Source of the DNA: a virus
Reading direction: 5' to 3' (one strand)
Virus record (IMG/VR): IMGVR_UViG_3300017989_000350
Coordinates: 1-28,807 of that record
DNA length: 28,807 bases
A model generated the notes under the pieces. That model was given only the letters and a program-made list of their open reading frames with translations, did not search any database and was not told where the DNA came from. How positions within the stretch are numbered: position 1 is the first letter of the stretch; the number at the start of each line of letters is the position of its first letter. Shown one piece after another: positions 3,385-10,313 of the stretch. The position numbers were made by a program, and so were the translations under genes.

Positions 3385-3413
3385 TTGACAAACGCTCCCA
3401 AAGCCTTTAACAC
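3385..3413 (+). promoter_or_regulatory. sigma70-like promoter of the plus-strand island
   Basis: A perfect -35 TTGACA (3385-3390) is followed after 16-17 bases by TTAACA/TAACAC as a weak -10. The first 11 bases (TTGACAAACGC) are identical to those of the promoter at 6979. It precedes the small acidic gene at 3464 and the Nop/IS110-like gene. Confidence 0.45.
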
Positions 3414-3463: not shown

Positions 3464-3640
3464 ATGGAACCACAAATACAAACCTTTCCTCACGATCCAC
3501 AAAATGTGTATGAGGAGCCCTATCTGTCTGATCCCGAGATCGCAGAAATTCTCGCCACAGAAAGCGAAGATGATACAGAGGGAGAGCCCTGGATCTCTGA
3601 GCCTGGCTGTATATTCGATCCGCTGTGCGAGGCCGAATAA
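3464..3640 (+). CDS. small acidic protein of unknown function
   Basis: A 58-residue protein starting MEPQIQTFPHDPQ. It has a perfect Shine-Dalgarno AAGGAGG (3452-3458) about 5 bases before the ATG. It is very acidic (ATESEDDTEGEPW) with two cysteines near the C-terminus (GCIFDPLCEAE). No family is recognised. It is the first gene after the island promoter and lies 46 bases before the Tas-like gene, so it is probably co-transcribed with it. Small acidic phage proteins are often inhibitors or nucleic-acid mimics, but nothing here shows that. Confidence 0.6.
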   Translation: MEPQIQTFPHDPQNVYEEPYLSDPEIAEILATESEDDTEGEPWISEPGCIFDPLCEAE

Positions 3641-3686: not shown

Positions 3687-4865
3687 ATGGCTGACAAAAA
3701 AAAGAAACAGCCCAAGAAAAAGAAACTCAGTTCGAAGACTTCCGACGCACGGAGTCTGTTCACAAGCGCCGATCCCATCTACCGATTGTCCAAGGACATG
3801 AAAGAAGCTGCCAAGCTGATGGGGCTCCTCGAAGCGCGGTACTTGGTAGATACCTACTATGCGTACCAGCAGGTGAGGATCCGCGCGGCACACCAGGTCG
3901 ATCGGTGCGAGGAAGTCCAGGAACCAACCGCTCTCCTGCGGTGGACACACGGAAACTTCGACAGGATCGAGACCGATGTCAAAAGCTCCCTGCGAACCTT
4001 CGCAGCTGAATATGCCGTCGGCGAATGGCTCCAGAGCATCTGCGGAATCGCCGATGTCCTGTCCGCTGCATTCCTCACCACGTTCGACATCCGCGAACGT
4101 TTCCTCACCGCCTGCTACTGCACAGACAAGGACCAGGATCGGAAGCACGGCAAGGGCAACAGGATGATGCGACCGATCGGCGGATCGCAGAAGGATGGTA
4201 TCCTGCGATTCCGATGCACTGGACGACGCGGCAAAGGCGAGAAGGAGGATCCCGACGGCACGCCGCCCGAGCAGCTGAAGGACAAGAGCTGCAAGGTCAT
4301 CCACGAGGTGAAGGTTCGGGATCTCAGAGCGGGCCAAGGCGTCCTGGTCCGACCGAGCACCGCTGGTCACTGGTGGAACTACGCTGGCCTCAACCCCGAC
4401 ATCAGCTGGAAGAAGAAGGAGATGCGCCCCTGGAACGCCAGGGCGAAAGTTCTCTGCTTCAAGGCAGGTAGCTCCTTCATCATGACCCAGAACAGGGATG
4501 CGGACTTCTACGGCCACCTTTTCGCCGAACGGAAGCAGCGCGAAGTGAAGCGAAACGAGGCTGGACTGTTCGCCAAAGCCGCAGAAGAGCAGGCCAAGGT
4601 TGTAGGGGAGAAGACGGTCGCGTACAAGCACTACAGCAAGGGCAAGCTGCCGCCTCTCCATCTCACCGCTCGCGCGCGCAGGTACGCGGTGAAGATCTTC
4701 CTCAGCCACTTCCACGATGTGGCCTACCGAGACTACTACGGCGAGCCTCCCCCTGTCCCCTTCGCCTTCACAAAGCACTGCGATGGAGATCACACCCACT
4801 ACATCGAGCCTCCCTACATCAACTCCAACGGCAAGAGCCTGCGGCAGCTGTACGGCGAGGTATAG
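3687..4865 (+). CDS. Nop/IS110-like RNA-binding protein, probable TIGR-associated Tas (nuclease-less, TasA-like)
   Basis: A 392-residue protein with a Lys-rich N-terminus (residues 2-13). A helical segment follows, LEARYLVDTYYAYQQVRIRA (48-67). Then come a helix-hairpin-helix-like SICGIADVLSAAFL (117-130), a ~90-residue insert (136-226) rich in Lys, Arg, Gly and Cys, and HWWNYAGLNPDISWKKK (228-244) with RPWNARAKVLCFKAGSSF. The C-terminus has LPPLHLTARARRYAVKIFLS (321-340). The SI-GI...A-LL and GH-W-YAGL-P blocks are the hallmark of the C-terminal half of IS110 transposases and of the related Nop domain of Tas proteins. The IS110 DEDD nuclease domain, HNH and RuvC motifs are not visible. GGAGGAGG precedes the ATG. 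A repeat array begins 28 bases after the stop. I infer that the protein binds processed array RNAs; activity is unproven. Confidence 0.75.
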   Translation: MADKKKKQPKKKKLSSKTSDARSLFTSADPIYRLSKDMKEAAKLMGLLEARYLVDTYYAYQQVRIRAAHQVDRCEEVQEPTALLRWTHGNFDRIETDVKSSLRTFAAEYAVGEWLQSICGIADVLSAAFLTTFDIRERFLTACYCTDKDQDRKHGKGNRMMRPIGGSQKDGILRFRCTGRRGKGEKEDPDGTPPEQLKDKSCKVIHEVKVRDLRAGQGVLVRPSTAGHWWNYAGLNPDISWKKKEMRPWNARAKVLCFKAGSSFIMTQNRDADFYGHLFAERKQREVKRNEAGLFAKAAEEQAKVVGEKTVAYKHYSKGKLPPLHLTARARRYAVKIFLSHFHDVAYRDYYGEPPPVPFAFTKHCDGDHTHYIEPPYINSNGKSLRQLYGEV

Positions 4866-4892
4866 TCAGCACCCAGATCTTTGACAATAGAA

Positions 4893-6919
4893 TAGTACAG
4901 CCATTAGGTGTGAAAGAAACATATGAGTGGAGCGCAGGCAGGGTAGTTGAAAGAAACACTGTCGAAGATCGCAGACACGCCCATAGAAAGAAGCAAGTTC
5001 AAGGATCGCAGATATCATTGGCAAAAGAAACATGGAAGCTGATCGCAGACATGAGGATGAAATGAAACATCGTTTTCGAACGCAGACACATGGAGCGAAA
5101 GAAACACTGGACCTGATCGCAGGCAAAAGGGTGTAGAGAATCACCAGAGTAGAACGCAGACACGGTCGGCGAAAGAAACATAACACCTGATCGCAGACAT
5201 TCCAACAAAAAGAAACATCTTCCAAGAATGCAGACATCTCGTAGAAAAGAACCAAGGGATGGAATCGCAGGCAAAGGACAGGAAAGAAATACTGTATTGG
5301 ATCGCAACCAAATCCTATGAAAGAAACACACGGTAGGGAATGCAGACATTGAACAGAAGAGAAACATCAAGCCAGATCGCAGGCACAACAGCGAACAGAA
5401 ACAAAGCATCCGATCGCAACCAGACCTTCGGAATGAATCATCATAACCGAATGAAGACACACCATCGGAAAGAAACACGATCAATGATCGCAACCAGGGA
5501 GACGGAAAGAAACATCAAATCCGAATGCAACCCTAATCCATGATAAGCCATCGATATAGAAAGAAACATGAAGAACGAGCGAATCCATCCTGTGGAAAAG
5601 AAACATGAGCATAGAGAGCAACCAGACCCTCGGAATGAAGCATACGGAACGAATGAAAACATCCAAATCGACAGAAACAGAGAATGGAATGCAGCCATCT
5701 TAGGAAAAAGAACCACCTAGACGGAACGTAGCCATCATGACGGAAAGAAGTGAGAGGCAGAAACGCAAGCAGAACTCTAGAAAGAATCACTGGGGTGAAT
5801 CGCAACCAAAGCGTAGAAAAGAATCAAATTCGAGGAATGTAGCCAGACGCCGCAAAAGAAACAAGTTCAGGGATCGCAGTCAAGGTTGACGAAAGAAACA
5901 TACTATTTGAGCGCAACCATGATGTTAGACAGAAACACAATAAGAAAATGCAGACATAGTGAAGGATAGAGACATGTGAAGTAATCGCAATCAAACGAAC
6001 CGAAGAAAACATGACAGTAGAATGCAGACAAGCAGTTCGAAAGAAGTACGCCAGTTGATCGCAGACACGAATAGCGAAAGAAACAACAGGCAAAATCGCA
6101 AACACCTGGCCCGAAAGAAACATGAAGGAAGAATGTAGACACTTTGGTGAAAAGAAACAAACTGAGCAATCGCAGACAAAGCAAGTAAAAGAAACAGTCT
6201 GAAAGATCGTAGCCCGCACTGATGAAAGAAACATACGATTTGAACGCGGCCATAAGGAGAGAAAGAAACATATCCGAAGAGCGCAGCCAAGGAATTAGAA
6301 AGAAACAGGCTTGTGGAACGTAGCCATATAAGAAAAGAGAAACATGTTATCGGATCGCAGACATTCAGAATAAAAGAAACATTGAGTGGAATCGTAGACA
6401 CAACGGCAGAGAGAAACACATGACCGAAGCGTAATCACGTTCAGGGCAAGAAACATAAGCACAGAATGTAGCCATTGAGGGTAAAGGAAGCAGCTTCAAC
6501 GAACGTAGACAATTCGTAGGAAAGAAACATAGAATAGGATCGCAATCACGCAACCGGAAAGAAACACTAGAGAGGCGTGTAGCCAAGAGTCCAAAAAGAA
6601 ACAGGTATGAAGAACGCAGCCATGAAATTGGAAAGAAACAGGTTTTCGGAGCGCAGCCATGTTGTCAGATAGAAACAACTTAGGTGATCGTAGGCAATGA
6701 AACGAAAAGAAACAGAGCACTCGATCGAAATCATGCCGTCGAAAAGAATCATGGATTGGGAATGCAACCACAGCCCATGAAAGAAACAACTCAGCTGAAT
6801 GTAGCCACAAAAGGTGAAAGAATTACATAAGCAGAGCGTAACCAAGGTAATCGATAAGAAACAGAAGAATGGAATGCAGCCCAAAAAGGTAAAAGAATCA
6901 AATGAGCAGAGCGCATTCA
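4893..6919 (+). repeat. TIGR-like tandem interspaced guide RNA array (54 units of 37 bp)
   Basis: Two short conserved boxes alternate: A = RAAAGAAACA (10 bp) and B = GAWYGCARMCA (11 bp). Each is followed by 8 variable bases, so the period is 10+8+11+8 = 37 bp. A boxes start at 4912, 4949, 4986, 5023, 5060, 5097 and so on. From 5559 to 6891 there are exactly 36 periods without a length change. I count 54 A boxes and about 108 spacers that all look different. The array opens with a degenerate B at 4893 and closes with a B at 6909, suggesting B is the edge repeat and A the loop repeat. The drifted but length-locked boxes, non-coding period and neighbouring Nop/IS110-like gene fit a TIGR array whose RNA is cut into two-spacer guides of about one unit. 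A weak TTGACA at 4881 may assist transcription; otherwise it is read from the tas promoter. Strand is assumed from the gene. Confidence 0.8.
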
Positions 6920-8685: not shown

Positions 8686-8785
8686 GGCGCAACCAGCAAC
8701 AGCGAGACGGCCTCCACATGCCCGCGCACCCTCGCGCGCGTATGCGTGACCCCATCAGGAACAACGAGGCACACAGGCGCTCCTG

Positions 8786-8857
8786 CTGGCCTGCTCGGAC
8801 TCGAACCGAGGACATCTGGTGTAGGAAACCAGCGCTCTTCCACTAAACTACAGGCCA
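8786..8857 (-). tRNA. tRNA-Arg(CCT)
   Basis: The acceptor TGGCCTG pairs with CAGGCCA. A 5-bp anticodon stem CTGGT/ACCAG holds loop TTCCTAC with anticodon CCT (codon AGG). The T arm is CTCGG-TTCGAGT-CCGAG and the discriminator is G. CCA is not encoded. It is the last tRNA of the cluster in the direction of transcription. Confidence 0.9.
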
Positions 8858-8858
8858 A

Positions 8859-8942
8859 TGGCCGAGGCGGAGGGAATCGAACCCCCGTTTCCAGCTCCTA
8901 GCTACGCTTACCTGGGTAGAAACCAGGCGCGGCTACGCCCCG
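8859..8942 (-). tRNA. atypical tRNA-Arg(TCT)-like gene with missing D arm
   Basis: The acceptor CGGGGCG pairs with CGCCTCG (one G-U), followed by G and an encoded CCA. The T arm GGGGG-TTCGATT-CCCTC is normal. An anticodon stem CCTGG/CCAGG holds TTTCTAC, anticodon TCT (codon AGA). Only 8 bases lie between the acceptor and anticodon stems, so no D arm can form. The variable region is 24 bases and can fold as AGCT-AGG-AGCT. It may be a decayed gene or a specialised tRNA. Confidence 0.55.
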
Positions 8943-8943
8943 C

Positions 8944-9018
8944 TGGTCCGAGAGGCAGGGATCGAACCTGCGACCTCCTGATCCCAAATCAGGCGTCCTA
9001 CCACTGGACTACTCTCGG
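8944..9018 (-). tRNA. tRNA-Pro(TGG)
   Basis: The acceptor CCGAGAG pairs with CTCTCGG, the discriminator is A and CCA is encoded. The anticodon stem CCTGA/TCAGG holds loop TTTGGGA, anticodon TGG (codon CCA). The T arm is GCAGG-TTCGATC-CCTGC. All arms are canonical. Confidence 0.9.
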
Positions 9019-9030
9019 ATATCGTTCAGA

Positions 9031-9102
9031 TAGGGGCAGAGGGATTTGAACCCCCAACTTCTGGCTTGTAGGGCCAGATTTCTTCCGTTGAATTATGCCC
9101 CT
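9031..9102 (-). tRNA. tRNA-Val(TAC)
   Basis: The acceptor AGGGGCA pairs with TGCCCCT and the discriminator is A. The anticodon stem CTGGC/GCCAG holds CCTACAA, anticodon TAC (codon GTA). The T arm is GGGGG-TTCAAAT-CCCTC. CCA is not encoded. Confidence 0.9.
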
Positions 9103-9103
9103 G

Positions 9104-9174
9104 TTGGCCGGGGAGGAATTGAACCTCCGTCAAGCTCTTATAAGGAGCCCGTTCTACCGTTGAACTACCAGCCA
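9104..9174 (-). tRNA. tRNA-Ile(TAT)
   Basis: The acceptor TGGCTGG pairs with CCGGCCA (one G-U) and the discriminator is A. The anticodon stem GGCTC/GAGCT holds CTTATAA, anticodon TAT (codon ATA, rare in many bacteria). The T arm is GGAGG-TTCAATT-CCTCC. Confidence 0.88.
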
Positions 9175-9175
9175 G

Positions 9176-9247
9176 TTGGGACGACAGGGATCGAACCTGC
9201 AACTTCCTCCGCGTCGAGGAGGCACTCTGCCGTTGAGCTACATCCCA
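9176..9247 (-). tRNA. tRNA with anticodon GAC by position (Val), unusual C33
   Basis: All arms pair: acceptor TGGGATG/CGTCCCA, D stem GCTC/GAGT, anticodon stem CCTCC/GGAGG, T arm GCAGG-TTCGATC-CCTGT, discriminator A. The anticodon loop reads TCGACGC, which puts GAC at positions 34-36 but C instead of the near-universal T at position 33. The identity is therefore uncertain. Confidence 0.75.
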
Positions 9248-9248
9248 G

Positions 9249-9320
9249 CACCTGGTGTAGGAATCGAACCCACATAAACACGGTCCGTAGCCGTGCGCTC
9301 ATCCATTAAGCCAACCAGGC
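9249..9320 (-). tRNA. tRNA-Arg(ACG)
   Basis: The acceptor GCCTGGT pairs with ACCAGGT (one G-U) and the discriminator is G. The anticodon stem CACGG/CCGTG holds CTACGGA, anticodon ACG (codons CGN through inosine). The T arm is GTGGG-TTCGATT-CCTAC. Confidence 0.88.
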
Positions 9321-9324
9321 ATGA

Positions 9325-9396
9325 CTGACCCGACAGGGCTCGAACCTGTGACCTCACCGTTCGGAGCGGTGCGCTCTTCCTCTGAGCTACGGATCA
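9325..9396 (-). tRNA. tRNA-Arg(CCG)
   Basis: The acceptor TGATCCG pairs with CGGGTCA (one G-U) and the discriminator is G. The anticodon stem CACCG/CGGTG holds CTCCGAA, anticodon CCG (codon CGG). The T arm is ACAGG-TTCGAGC-CCTGT. Confidence 0.9.
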
Positions 9397-9401
9397 TCTC
9401 G

Positions 9402-9474
9402 TGGAGCTGGTCGGGATCGAACCGACGACCTCCTGCTTGCAAGGCAGGTGCTCTCCCAATTGAGCTACAACCCC
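9402..9474 (-). tRNA. tRNA-Ala(TGC)
   Basis: The acceptor GGGGTTG pairs with CAGCTCC (two G-U) and the discriminator is A. The anticodon stem CCTGC/GCAGG holds CTTGCAA, anticodon TGC (codon GCA). The T arm is GTCGG-TTCGATC-CCGAC. Confidence 0.9.
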
Positions 9475-9480
9475 AAAATG

Positions 9481-9554
9481 AAGAGGCGACGGGATTTGAA
9501 CCCGCTATCCCGAGGATCAAAACCTCGTGGCTTATCCAGCTTGCCTACGCCTCT
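9481..9554 (-). tRNA. tRNA-Gln(TTG)
   Basis: The acceptor AGAGGCG pairs with CGCCTCT. The anticodon stem CGAGG/CCTCG holds TTTTGAT, anticodon TTG (codon CAA). The T arm is GCGGG-TTCAAAT-CCCGT. The discriminator is T, unusual for Gln. CCA is not encoded. Confidence 0.88.
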
Positions 9555-9556
9555 TG

Positions 9557-9627
9557 AGCCTTCAGACGGATTCGAACCGACGTTCTCGGATTGGCAACCC
9601 GATGCACTACCACTATGCTATGAAGGC
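9557..9627 (-). tRNA. tRNA-Gly(GCC)
   Basis: The acceptor GCCTTCA pairs with TGAAGGC and the discriminator is T, as expected for bacterial Gly. The anticodon stem TCGGG/TCCGA holds TTGCCAA, anticodon GCC (codon GGC). The T arm GTCGG-TTCGAAT-CCGTC has one T-T mismatch. Confidence 0.88.
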
Positions 9628-9631
9628 TGAA

Positions 9632-9712
9632 AGGACCGACTGGGATTCGAACCCAGGAAGCTTTCGCAGAAGATTAAAAGTCTTCTCCCTTTGACCACTA
9701 GGGTATCGGTCC
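9632..9712 (-). tRNA. tRNA-Lys(TTT) with an extended variable arm
   Basis: The acceptor GGACCGA pairs with TCGGTCC. The D arm stem is CCC/GGG. The anticodon stem GAAGA/TCTTC holds CTTTTAA, anticodon TTT (codon AAA). The T arm is CTGGG-TTCGAAT-CCCAG. The variable region is 12 bases with a small GC-GAAA-GC hairpin, a class II feature normally seen in Ser, Leu and Tyr tRNAs. The discriminator is T. Confidence 0.8.
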
Positions 9713-9715
9713 ATG

Positions 9716-9788
<73 letters not shown>

Positions 9789-9793
9789 CTGAG

Positions 9794-9865
9794 AGCCCCT
9801 ACTCGGTACTGCCCCGAGTTCTTCGGCTTGGAAGGCCGACACATCGCTTTTTATGCTTCAGGGGC
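9794..9865 (-). tRNA. elbow-deficient tRNA-Gly(TCC)-like gene
   Basis: The acceptor GCCCCTG pairs with TAGGGGC (one G-U) and the discriminator T fits Gly. The anticodon stem TCGGC/GCCGA holds a canonical CTTCCAA loop, anticodon TCC (codon GGA). A T-arm stem CTCGG/CCGAG is intact but its loop is GGCAGTA instead of TTC-type. The D stem GCAT/ATGT encloses AAAAAGCG without the GG pair. Both partners of the D-loop/T-loop contact are therefore lost while every stem is kept. Standard tRNA finders may miss it. Confidence 0.65.
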
Positions 9866-9868
9866 GTG

Positions 9869-9940
9869 TGACCCGACCGAGGCTCGAACTCGGACTCTCC
9901 AGATTGAAAGTCTGGCGGCTTACCATTTGCCTACCGGGCC
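9869..9940 (-). tRNA. tRNA-Glu(TTC)
   Basis: The acceptor GGCCCGG pairs with TCGGGTC (two G-U) and the discriminator is A. The anticodon stem CCAGA/TCTGG holds CTTTCAA, anticodon TTC (codon GAA). The T arm is CCGAG-TTCGAGC-CTCGG. Confidence 0.9.
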
Positions 9941-10237
9941 AATGACGGAGACGACTTCTCTGGTTTTCTACTGCTGATTACTGAAAGGAAGGAGTCCGCT
10001 GAGGAGCCGTCCCCGAATCTCGAAATGGGGAATTTAGATTGTCAAAGATCGCAGTCGAACACAGTGGCTTTTGCCCCTGGGACGCCCGTTTTTTCTTTGC
10101 AATCTGTTTCAGACGTCCCATGGTCTTATGGCCTTCCCGCTTCCACGACTGGGCGAGGCTCGGCCTGCCTACCGCCAGCGGGTTGGCGCTTTGTCGTGGC
10201 TATTGTTCTTGCCGCTGCCATGTTCGTCTCTCCTCAG
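9941..10237 (-). other. gene-free stretch in the tRNA cluster with inverted repeats; possible structured RNA
   Basis: No convincing protein gene or tRNA is seen in these 297 bases. On the minus strand it would be transcribed between tRNA-Asp and tRNA-Glu. It contains CGCCA/TGGCG (10073-10077 with 10084-10088), GGC-AGGC/GCCT-GCC (10052 region pattern at 10152-10169), TGGGACG/CGTCCCA (10078-10084 with 10114-10120) and a CCCC/GGGG hairpin near 10011-10030. A second TTGACA-like site lies at 10045-10040 without a good -10. A structured RNA is possible but no known class is recognised. Confidence 0.3.
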
Positions 10238-10313
10238 CGAGGTGTACGGGATTTGAACCCGTGAAACCCTGATCGACAGTCAGGTGCGATAGTCCAGACT
10301 ACGCGAACACCCC
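10238..10313 (-). tRNA. tRNA-Asp(GTC)
   Basis: The acceptor GGGGTGT pairs with ACACCTC (one G-U) and the discriminator is G, as expected for Asp. The anticodon stem CCTGA/TCAGG holds CTGTCGA, anticodon GTC (codon GAC). The T arm is ACGGG-TTCAAAT-CCCGT. It is the first tRNA after the cluster promoter. Confidence 0.9.

Follow-up and report, generated by a model that had tools for sequence, protein, structure and literature searches.

What does a long array of two short alternating repeats do beside a Nop-domain protein gene in a viral genome, and how do such arrays change over time? These questions are raised by one locus of IMG/VR record IMGVR_UViG_3300017989_000350, of which positions 1 to 28,807 were analyzed as a single stretch of 28,807 nucleotides (hereafter the window, numbered from its first base). 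An earlier sequence-only reading, made from the letters alone, had proposed that the gene and array form a TIGR-Tas RNA-guided system, a class reportedly described in 2025. We consider it highly probable that the locus, carried by a T4-like phage, belongs to the TasA type of TIGR-Tas systems and acts by the steps proposed below. Comparison of related loci further suggests that arrays of the TIGR family change by gain and loss of whole units at their edge repeats, a pattern seen in the relatives and not in this phage.

The array is periodic. Over positions 4893-6919, self-matching at a lag of 37 nt reached 0.53, whereas the best of lags 30-44 never exceeded 0.328 in 200 dinucleotide-preserving shuffles. 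A full parse resolved 54 copies of a 10-nt loop repeat (consensus GAAAGAAACA) alternating with 55 copies of an 11-nt edge repeat (consensus GATCGCAGACA, varying chiefly at bases 3, 4, 6, 8 and 9) at a period of 37 nt, and the spacers between them, leaving aside the flank beyond the last repeat, measured exactly 8 nt in 106 of 109 cases, 9 nt in two and 7 nt in one. Ten repeats between 5412 and 5596, one of them a half-repeat, were assigned manually and verified in the sequence; an automatic chain count, halting at an irregular unit in this region, gives 37 units for the window, and the figure of 54 repeats comes from the full parse. The lag test and the parse together bear out the alternating 10- and 11-bp boxes, 8-bp variable segments and 37-bp period of the sequence-only reading, as well as its placement of the array start 28 bp past the gene (28 bases separate the gene end at 4865 from the first 11-bp copy at 4893, on the same strand). 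Its count of 54 units, or about 54 dual guides, holds for the loop repeats and needs amending for the units, which come to 53 regular ones and one irregular, the latter carrying an extra half-unit made up of GATAAGCCA plus 8 nt.

This design agrees with TIGR arrays as characterized in PMC12045711: two alternating repeats of 8-12 nt, short spacers (9 nt; 8 in SpTIGR), a unit of about 36 nt and truncated array ends. In the window, truncation of the edge repeat is clear at the 5′ end (TAGTACAGCCA) and less clear at the 3′ end (GAGCGCATTCA), where the 3′ half is degenerate. Edge and loop repeats share their end motifs, as expected of TIGR-Tas, starting with GA (or AA) and finishing with CA in most copies, without using the UG...CCA motif of TasR itself. 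The suggestion that 8-bp spacers might mark a divergent system did not stand, as SpTIGR has 16 nt of variable sequence (PMC12045711) and the array of Salicola phage CGphi29, read by eye, also shows 8-nt spacers. The array is long: its 54 repeats exceed every relative array in the compared sample (by chain count, median 16 units and maximum 44 over 60 array entries, a few arrays being entered twice), and the most frequent TIGR array size is 5 to 15 units (PMC12045711). A CRISPR array was also considered and rejected, the single repeat of ~25-36 nt with spacers of similar size not being found; cas genes were not searched for.

Covariation among the edge repeats offers a way of telling edge from loop repeat without experiment. 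Base 8 of an edge copy is Watson-Crick complementary to base 4 of the following copy in 50 of 53 cases, where 29.6 were expected (standard deviation 3.0); across 52 units these comprise 35 G-C, 14 A-T and 1 T-A pairs, and the three non-pairs are one G-T, the irregular unit and one A-C. At control distances the same two bases pair in 27 of 54 cases within a copy, 27 of 52 at the second copy downstream and 29 of 51 at the third, with the fourth near chance. The same clamp is found in 14 related arrays whose edge repeats are 10 nt long, where bases 8 and 3 of neighboring copies gave 294 Watson-Crick pairs and 11 G-U pairs among 305, and bases 7 and 4 were paired in 304 of 305; within one copy, bases 8 and 3 paired in 177 of 324 cases, below the chance value of 205. 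As these 14 arrays are mutually related, their pairs do not all count as independent. Because edge repeats pair with their neighbors and not within a copy, we infer that each functional RNA begins midway through one edge repeat and ends midway through the following one. Such a unit matches the tigRNA, in which covarying pairs join different edge repeats (PMC12045711).

The same covariation bears on whether the array might instead be a DNA element, such as iterons or partition or packaging sites bound as DNA, rather than a source of guide RNAs. Direct repeats at fixed spacing can indeed be protein-binding sites, and TasA loci occasionally occur in operons with ParB-like genes (PMC12045711). However, the coupling links neighboring edge halves across the unit and is absent within a copy, as it would be for an RNA cut in the repeat; the spacers vary and almost all measure exactly 8 nt; and the only ParB_N match found in the phage falls in a methylase-like gene distant from tas. 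We therefore regard a DNA element as very improbable.

We determined the family of the adjoining protein by profile and fold. The window protein scored 131.7 bits against NCBIfam NF052498.1 (TIGR-Tas system RNA-guided endonuclease; cut-off 100) and contains the two blocks named in the sequence-only reading, SICGIADVLSAAFL and GHWWNYAGLNP. An alignment of the window protein with 63 relatives (A4, from which the intein-bearing relative L047 was excluded) matched, as a profile, the solved structures of TasR (PDB 9mty, E 1.1e-24) and TasH (PDB 21kl, E 1.5e-14), and the IS110 recombinases IS621 (E 1.2e-4) and ISCro4 (E 8.3e-4). Single-sequence prediction was unusable (mean pLDDT, the model confidence score, of 35), whereas an AlphaFold model built from the 64-sequence alignment had a mean pLDDT of 77 with a core above 90. 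This model matched TasH at Z 18.8, TasR at Z 18.1, and ISCro4 and IS621 at about 12 (IS621 12.2); archaeal Nop5 (1nt2) scored Z 7.2, and, with unrelated helical structures scoring up to Z 8.7, counts only alongside the TasH and TasR matches. The comparison with Tas, IS110 and Nop proteins that had been called for thus places TasH and TasR first, and the proposed TIGR-Tas identity is upheld by the family cut-off, the TasR/TasH profile and fold, the published array anatomy and the edge-to-edge pairing.

These matches also delimit the subtype. The alignment starts at model residues 43-47, facing TasR residue 111 and TasH residues 64-66, behind the nuclease domains of both proteins, and neither a Pfam scan nor the structure alignment found the N-terminal RuvC or HNH nuclease of the TasR and TasH subtypes. 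Because the protein has no Pfam match and its alignment begins behind those nuclease domains, sequence and model identify it as TasA-like, with no recognized nuclease, and the word 'endonuclease' in the NCBIfam name is not borne out here. PADLOC returned nothing for Tas.

An IS110-like transposase gene lying by chance beside an unrelated tandem repeat would account for some of these results. PHROG 4285, which the window protein matches as a single query, is labelled transposase; 58 of the 64 members of A4 match the Pfam IS110 C-terminal family (Transposase_20, best E 4.5e-7); and the fold matches to IS621 and ISCro4 are appreciable. Yet IS621 aligns only from its residue 125 on, opposite model residue 44, and its N-terminal catalytic domain is missing from the window protein; moreover, NCBIfam gives TIGR-Tas and no IS110 match for that protein. 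On these two grounds an IS110 transposase was rejected. TasR and TasH match far better, and the relatives have arrays of the same design beside the gene. Such a chance neighborhood is, in our judgment, extremely improbable.

Among known systems, FpTIGR, with the TasA of Flavonifractor plautii (PMC12045711), resembles the locus in its nuclease-free Nop-domain protein, adjoining dual-repeat array of edge and loop repeats and paired spacers; it has 18 nt of spacer in all, in contrast to 8+8, and a unit of 36 rather than 37 nt. The 11-nt edge repeat, the 54 repeats, an insertion of ~85 residues in the protein and the T4-like carrier are features of the window that contrast with it, FpTasA being compared by description only. 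TasH of Salicola phage CGphi29 (SpTIGR) is the best fold match and shares the 8-nt spacers and the GA/AA...CA repeat ends, but carries its own N-terminal HNH nuclease and is only 14-15% identical to the window protein over the aligned core. TasR (TaTIGR) is 24% identical over 194 aligned residues and likewise has edge-to-edge pairs in its processed guide, but has its own N-terminal RuvC nuclease and 9-nt spacers. IS621 and ISCro4 have the Nop-like RNA-binding core in common with these proteins, but differ in having a catalytic domain at the N terminus and one bridge RNA, neither of which was seen in the window, and the likeness seen to box C/D small nucleolar ribonucleoproteins lies in the core fold. 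Every TIGR-Tas feature that we assessed was found at the locus, bar a terminator, for which the scan gave no candidate.

A search with the window protein alone matched only the phage's own contig, and relatives were reached by a conserved-motif search and two alignment-based scans. Alignment-based scanning confirmed 308 stretches in viral contigs, of which 80 were kept, and a one-genome-per-species collection contained three Tas loci (Halomonas sp. NO4, Acidobacteriaceae KBS 96 and a Woesearchaeota metagenome-assembled genome); plasmids yielded no match to a relative's Tas protein. A Tas reading frame is present at 88 of 88 relative loci (L027-L114, a few sharing a contig), giving 64 Tas proteins once near-identical ones were removed. 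Consensus arrays were parsed at 59 of the 88 loci after repeated arrays were dropped, and two of them (L091 and L105) are not TIGR-like. The extra region of the window protein is missing from 62 of the 63 relatives in A4, L091 having a shorter insertion: the stretch measures 91 residues in the window protein, 46 in L091 and 6 in most relatives, and model confidence is low at residues 140-221. Two further relatives deserve mention. In a phage contig of a close relative (3300025073_000048, L047:3279-5474), an intein with a C-terminal splicing signature splits the Tas gene just past the conserved RPWNA block. Microcystis phage Mvi-JY20 (PP438412.1, L276:4080-4510), an isolated and named phage, encodes a Tas relative annotated as hypothetical, followed by an apparent TIGR array.

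We then asked how arrays differ between relatives. The comparison covered 50 distinct relative arrays with typed edge and loop repeats, among which 25 array pairs share at least 8 spacers in order, and an indel was called clean when its two flanking spacers were adjacent on one side. All 21 distinct clean indels involved an even number of spacers (2, 4, 6, 8 or 16), that is, whole units, as would be expected because edge and loop repeats must alternate. More telling is the position of the boundary: the extra block started after an edge repeat in 20 of 20 typed indels, which has a probability of about 2e-6 if edge and loop starts are equally likely, a figure that serves as a guide only as some indels may share ancestry. 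Indels lay in the array interior as well as near the ends.

Spacer inheritance followed the same boundary. Where aligned spacers were unrelated (at least 4 of 8 bases differing), the partner in the unit was unrelated too for 65 of 81 typed spacers, a count that takes in both members of a pair. Among A spacers occurring in at least two arrays, 5 of 81 had an unrelated B partner somewhere, whereas 41 of 89 B spacers occurring in at least two arrays had an unrelated next A across the edge repeat (Fisher p 1.4e-9). Linkage between A and B is thus far stronger than between B and the next A, and A and B are therefore inherited together; these alignments identify the A-B pair as the unit of array evolution. 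Either edge repeats are the sites at which units are cut and joined, or selection purges arrays with split pairs, and in either case whole-pair turnover bounded by edge repeats is evidence from nature for the two spacers functioning as a pair. We did not find whole-unit turnover described in the sections consulted of the open-licence TIGR-Tas literature (PMC12045711 and the review PMC12385481).

What the guides recognize was approached through paired-spacer searches. The predicted target order, A followed by the reverse complement of B on one strand, was derived from reported overhangs (PMC12045711), and other orders served as controls. In the phage's own 195-kb contig, the 53 pairs (the irregular unit being left out), at gaps of 0-2, gave 0 exact sites, 0 at one mismatch and 20 at two, compared with means of 0, 0.9 and 17.5 in 12 pairing shuffles; in every one of the three other orders there was no exact site and one single-mismatch site, at chance. 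A broader search took 1,673 pairs of spacers, with relatives entered in both possible pairings, to 1.89 Mb of TIGR-carrying phages, namely the own contig and 38 of 47 further viral records (G002-G048) searched whole or mostly (G033 and G035, first 20 kb only). Exact matches in the predicted order numbered 12, against 7, 4 and 7 in three shuffles, and those in the three other orders numbered 1, 3 and 8, their shuffles ranging from 2 to 11. A second count over these contigs, with 1,484 filtered pairs and gaps of -2 to 8, showed no peak for the predicted order; its apparent peak of 22 matches, for A.B at gap 8, probably reflects arrays with 8-nt repeats matching themselves. We read these counts as no signal, although there may be a weak excess, and the excess over shuffled controls anticipated in the sequence-only reading did not convincingly appear. 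Across all viral contigs, two window spacer pairs matched 24 and 37 stretches respectively, and the phage's own sample, 3300017987, contributed none; tens of chance matches are expected from the size of the collection. In Halomonas sp. NO4, one of six spacer pairs matches its own genome exactly at gap 1 (L278, around 10001-10017), in a gene that from its translation is transporter-like; with 0.05 such matches expected over six pairs, from the composition of one 20-kb piece, we treat this as a lead and not as evidence.

These searches addressed DNA, and the guides could instead act on RNA, pairing with host or phage transcripts in the manner of box C/D guides. The Nop domain is common to box C/D proteins, as the Nop5 match recalls, paired 8-nt spacers could pair with RNA, and the DNA searches found no target; RNA targets were not searched for. 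On the other hand, published TasR acted on DNA and was inactive on RNA substrates (PMC12045711), and inheritance of the A-B pair as one unit fits a single composite site. RNA as the target is, on balance, improbable.

The window matches both ends of the 194,905-bp viral contig IMGVR_UViG_3300017987_000003, with 6 differences over 28.8 kb and 0 in the array, the two records not necessarily being separate samples. Because an identical 123-bp stretch lies at the two ends of the contig, its sequence suggests a complete, circularly permuted genome. Its gene content (Gp23 capsid, Gp20 portal, prohead protease and contractile-tail sheath) marks the carrier as a large T4-like phage of bacteria, with only distant capsid and sheath relatives among named phages. 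A search for a tyrosine integrase found none, other integrase families not being searched, and the phage is for this reason probably virulent. The genome also carries a tRNA cluster (window positions 8785-10313, − strand; fifteen genes by ARAGORN, fourteen by Rfam), an HNH endonuclease intein within the portal protein (L013:9220-11910; contig G001 148520-151210), and a gene that combines a ParB_N match with a DNA methylase domain (contig G001 122844-124268), away from tas.

Features of the tas-array block are collected in Table 1. Promoter-like near twins (TTGACAAACGC...) at 3385 and 6979 bracket the block, the second lying downstream of the array. The small ORF (open reading frame) upstream of tas had its best tblastn match among the relatives compared at E 0.16, which is unconvincing. 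Within the spacers, both A and B of the window are purine-rich at positions 2, 5 and 8 (0.60-0.72, versus 0.35-0.62 elsewhere), a three-base rhythm with a permutation p of 0.0002 that was spotted before it was tested and is absent from the spacers of the closest relatives.

Table 1 Positions of the tas gene, the array and neighboring features in the window.
Feature	Position	Strand	Basis or remark
Promoter-like sequence (putative)	3385..3413	+	TTGACA, 17 nt, TAACAC; seen by eye, not reported by consensus scan
Small acidic ORF, 58 aa, upstream of tas	3464..3640	+	Ribosome-binding-like site; from sequence
tas gene, 392 aa, TasA-like Nop-domain protein without recognized nuclease	3687..4865	+	Family profile, model
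Extra Tas region, about 85 residues (about 138-222)	4098..4352	+	Alignment A4, model
TIGR dual-repeat array	4893..6919	+	54 loop + 55 edge repeats, 8-nt spacers; 53 regular tigRNA units + 1 irregular
First edge repeat, 5′-truncated	4893..4903	+	Only CAGCCA fits consensus
Irregular unit with extra half-repeat	5523..5576	+	Edge pair broken (A with C)
Last edge repeat, 3′ half degenerate	6909..6919	+	Array parse

By homology with the published family, the array would be transcribed, and a host RNase together with Tas would cut within every edge repeat, releasing about 53 RNAs, each 37 nt long. A Tas dimer would hold one such RNA, whose spacers A and B would pair with opposite strands of a short DNA site, and nuclease-free binding, with strand opening and a sharp bend, would block transcription or replication of the target, an effect that the authors suggest for TasA (PMC12045711). 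The target would lie outside the phage's own genome, the likeliest candidates being a host gene or a competing phage, prophage or plasmid. More speculatively, a virulent T4-like phage might deploy about 53 dual guides, through an RNA-guided DNA-binding protein with no nuclease, to repress host genes or rival elements in a programmable way, with TIGR arrays gaining and losing, in the interior and near the ends, tigRNA-sized modules that end at the RNA cut sites; we put this combined picture forward tentatively and think it rather unlikely to hold in full.

Several observations weigh against the TIGR-Tas system and whole-unit turnover proposed here. A simple scan gave no + strand candidate for a rho-independent terminator after the array, with which published TIGR arrays typically, though not obligatorily, end (PMC12045711). 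The window protein lacks a Pfam match, and its unexplained insertion of ~85 residues could hold an unrecognized activity. In the covariation analysis, the control at the second copy upstream was also in excess (37 of 52, p 0.004), which we take as one odd result among eight distances, and the outer edge pair, between bases 9 and 3, is incompletely preserved in the window array (30 of 53 when G-T is counted as a pair, 17.1 by chance). A single group of six related arrays supplies 13 of the 21 indels, and this phage supplies none. Finally, no target was found clearly above chance in the phage's own genome, the TIGR-carrying phages or the viral contigs.

The emergence and expansion of TIGR arrays have been called an enigma, and their genuine targets hard to identify (PMC12045711). 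The locus adds to the family an apparently complete T4-like genome with the longest array of the compared sample, and whole-unit turnover among its relatives lets one ask whether mechanism or selection fixes the unit boundary. If arrays do gain and lose tigRNA-sized modules in this way, their turnover would fit either a process that inserts copies of guide RNAs or one in which recombination is restricted to edge repeats.

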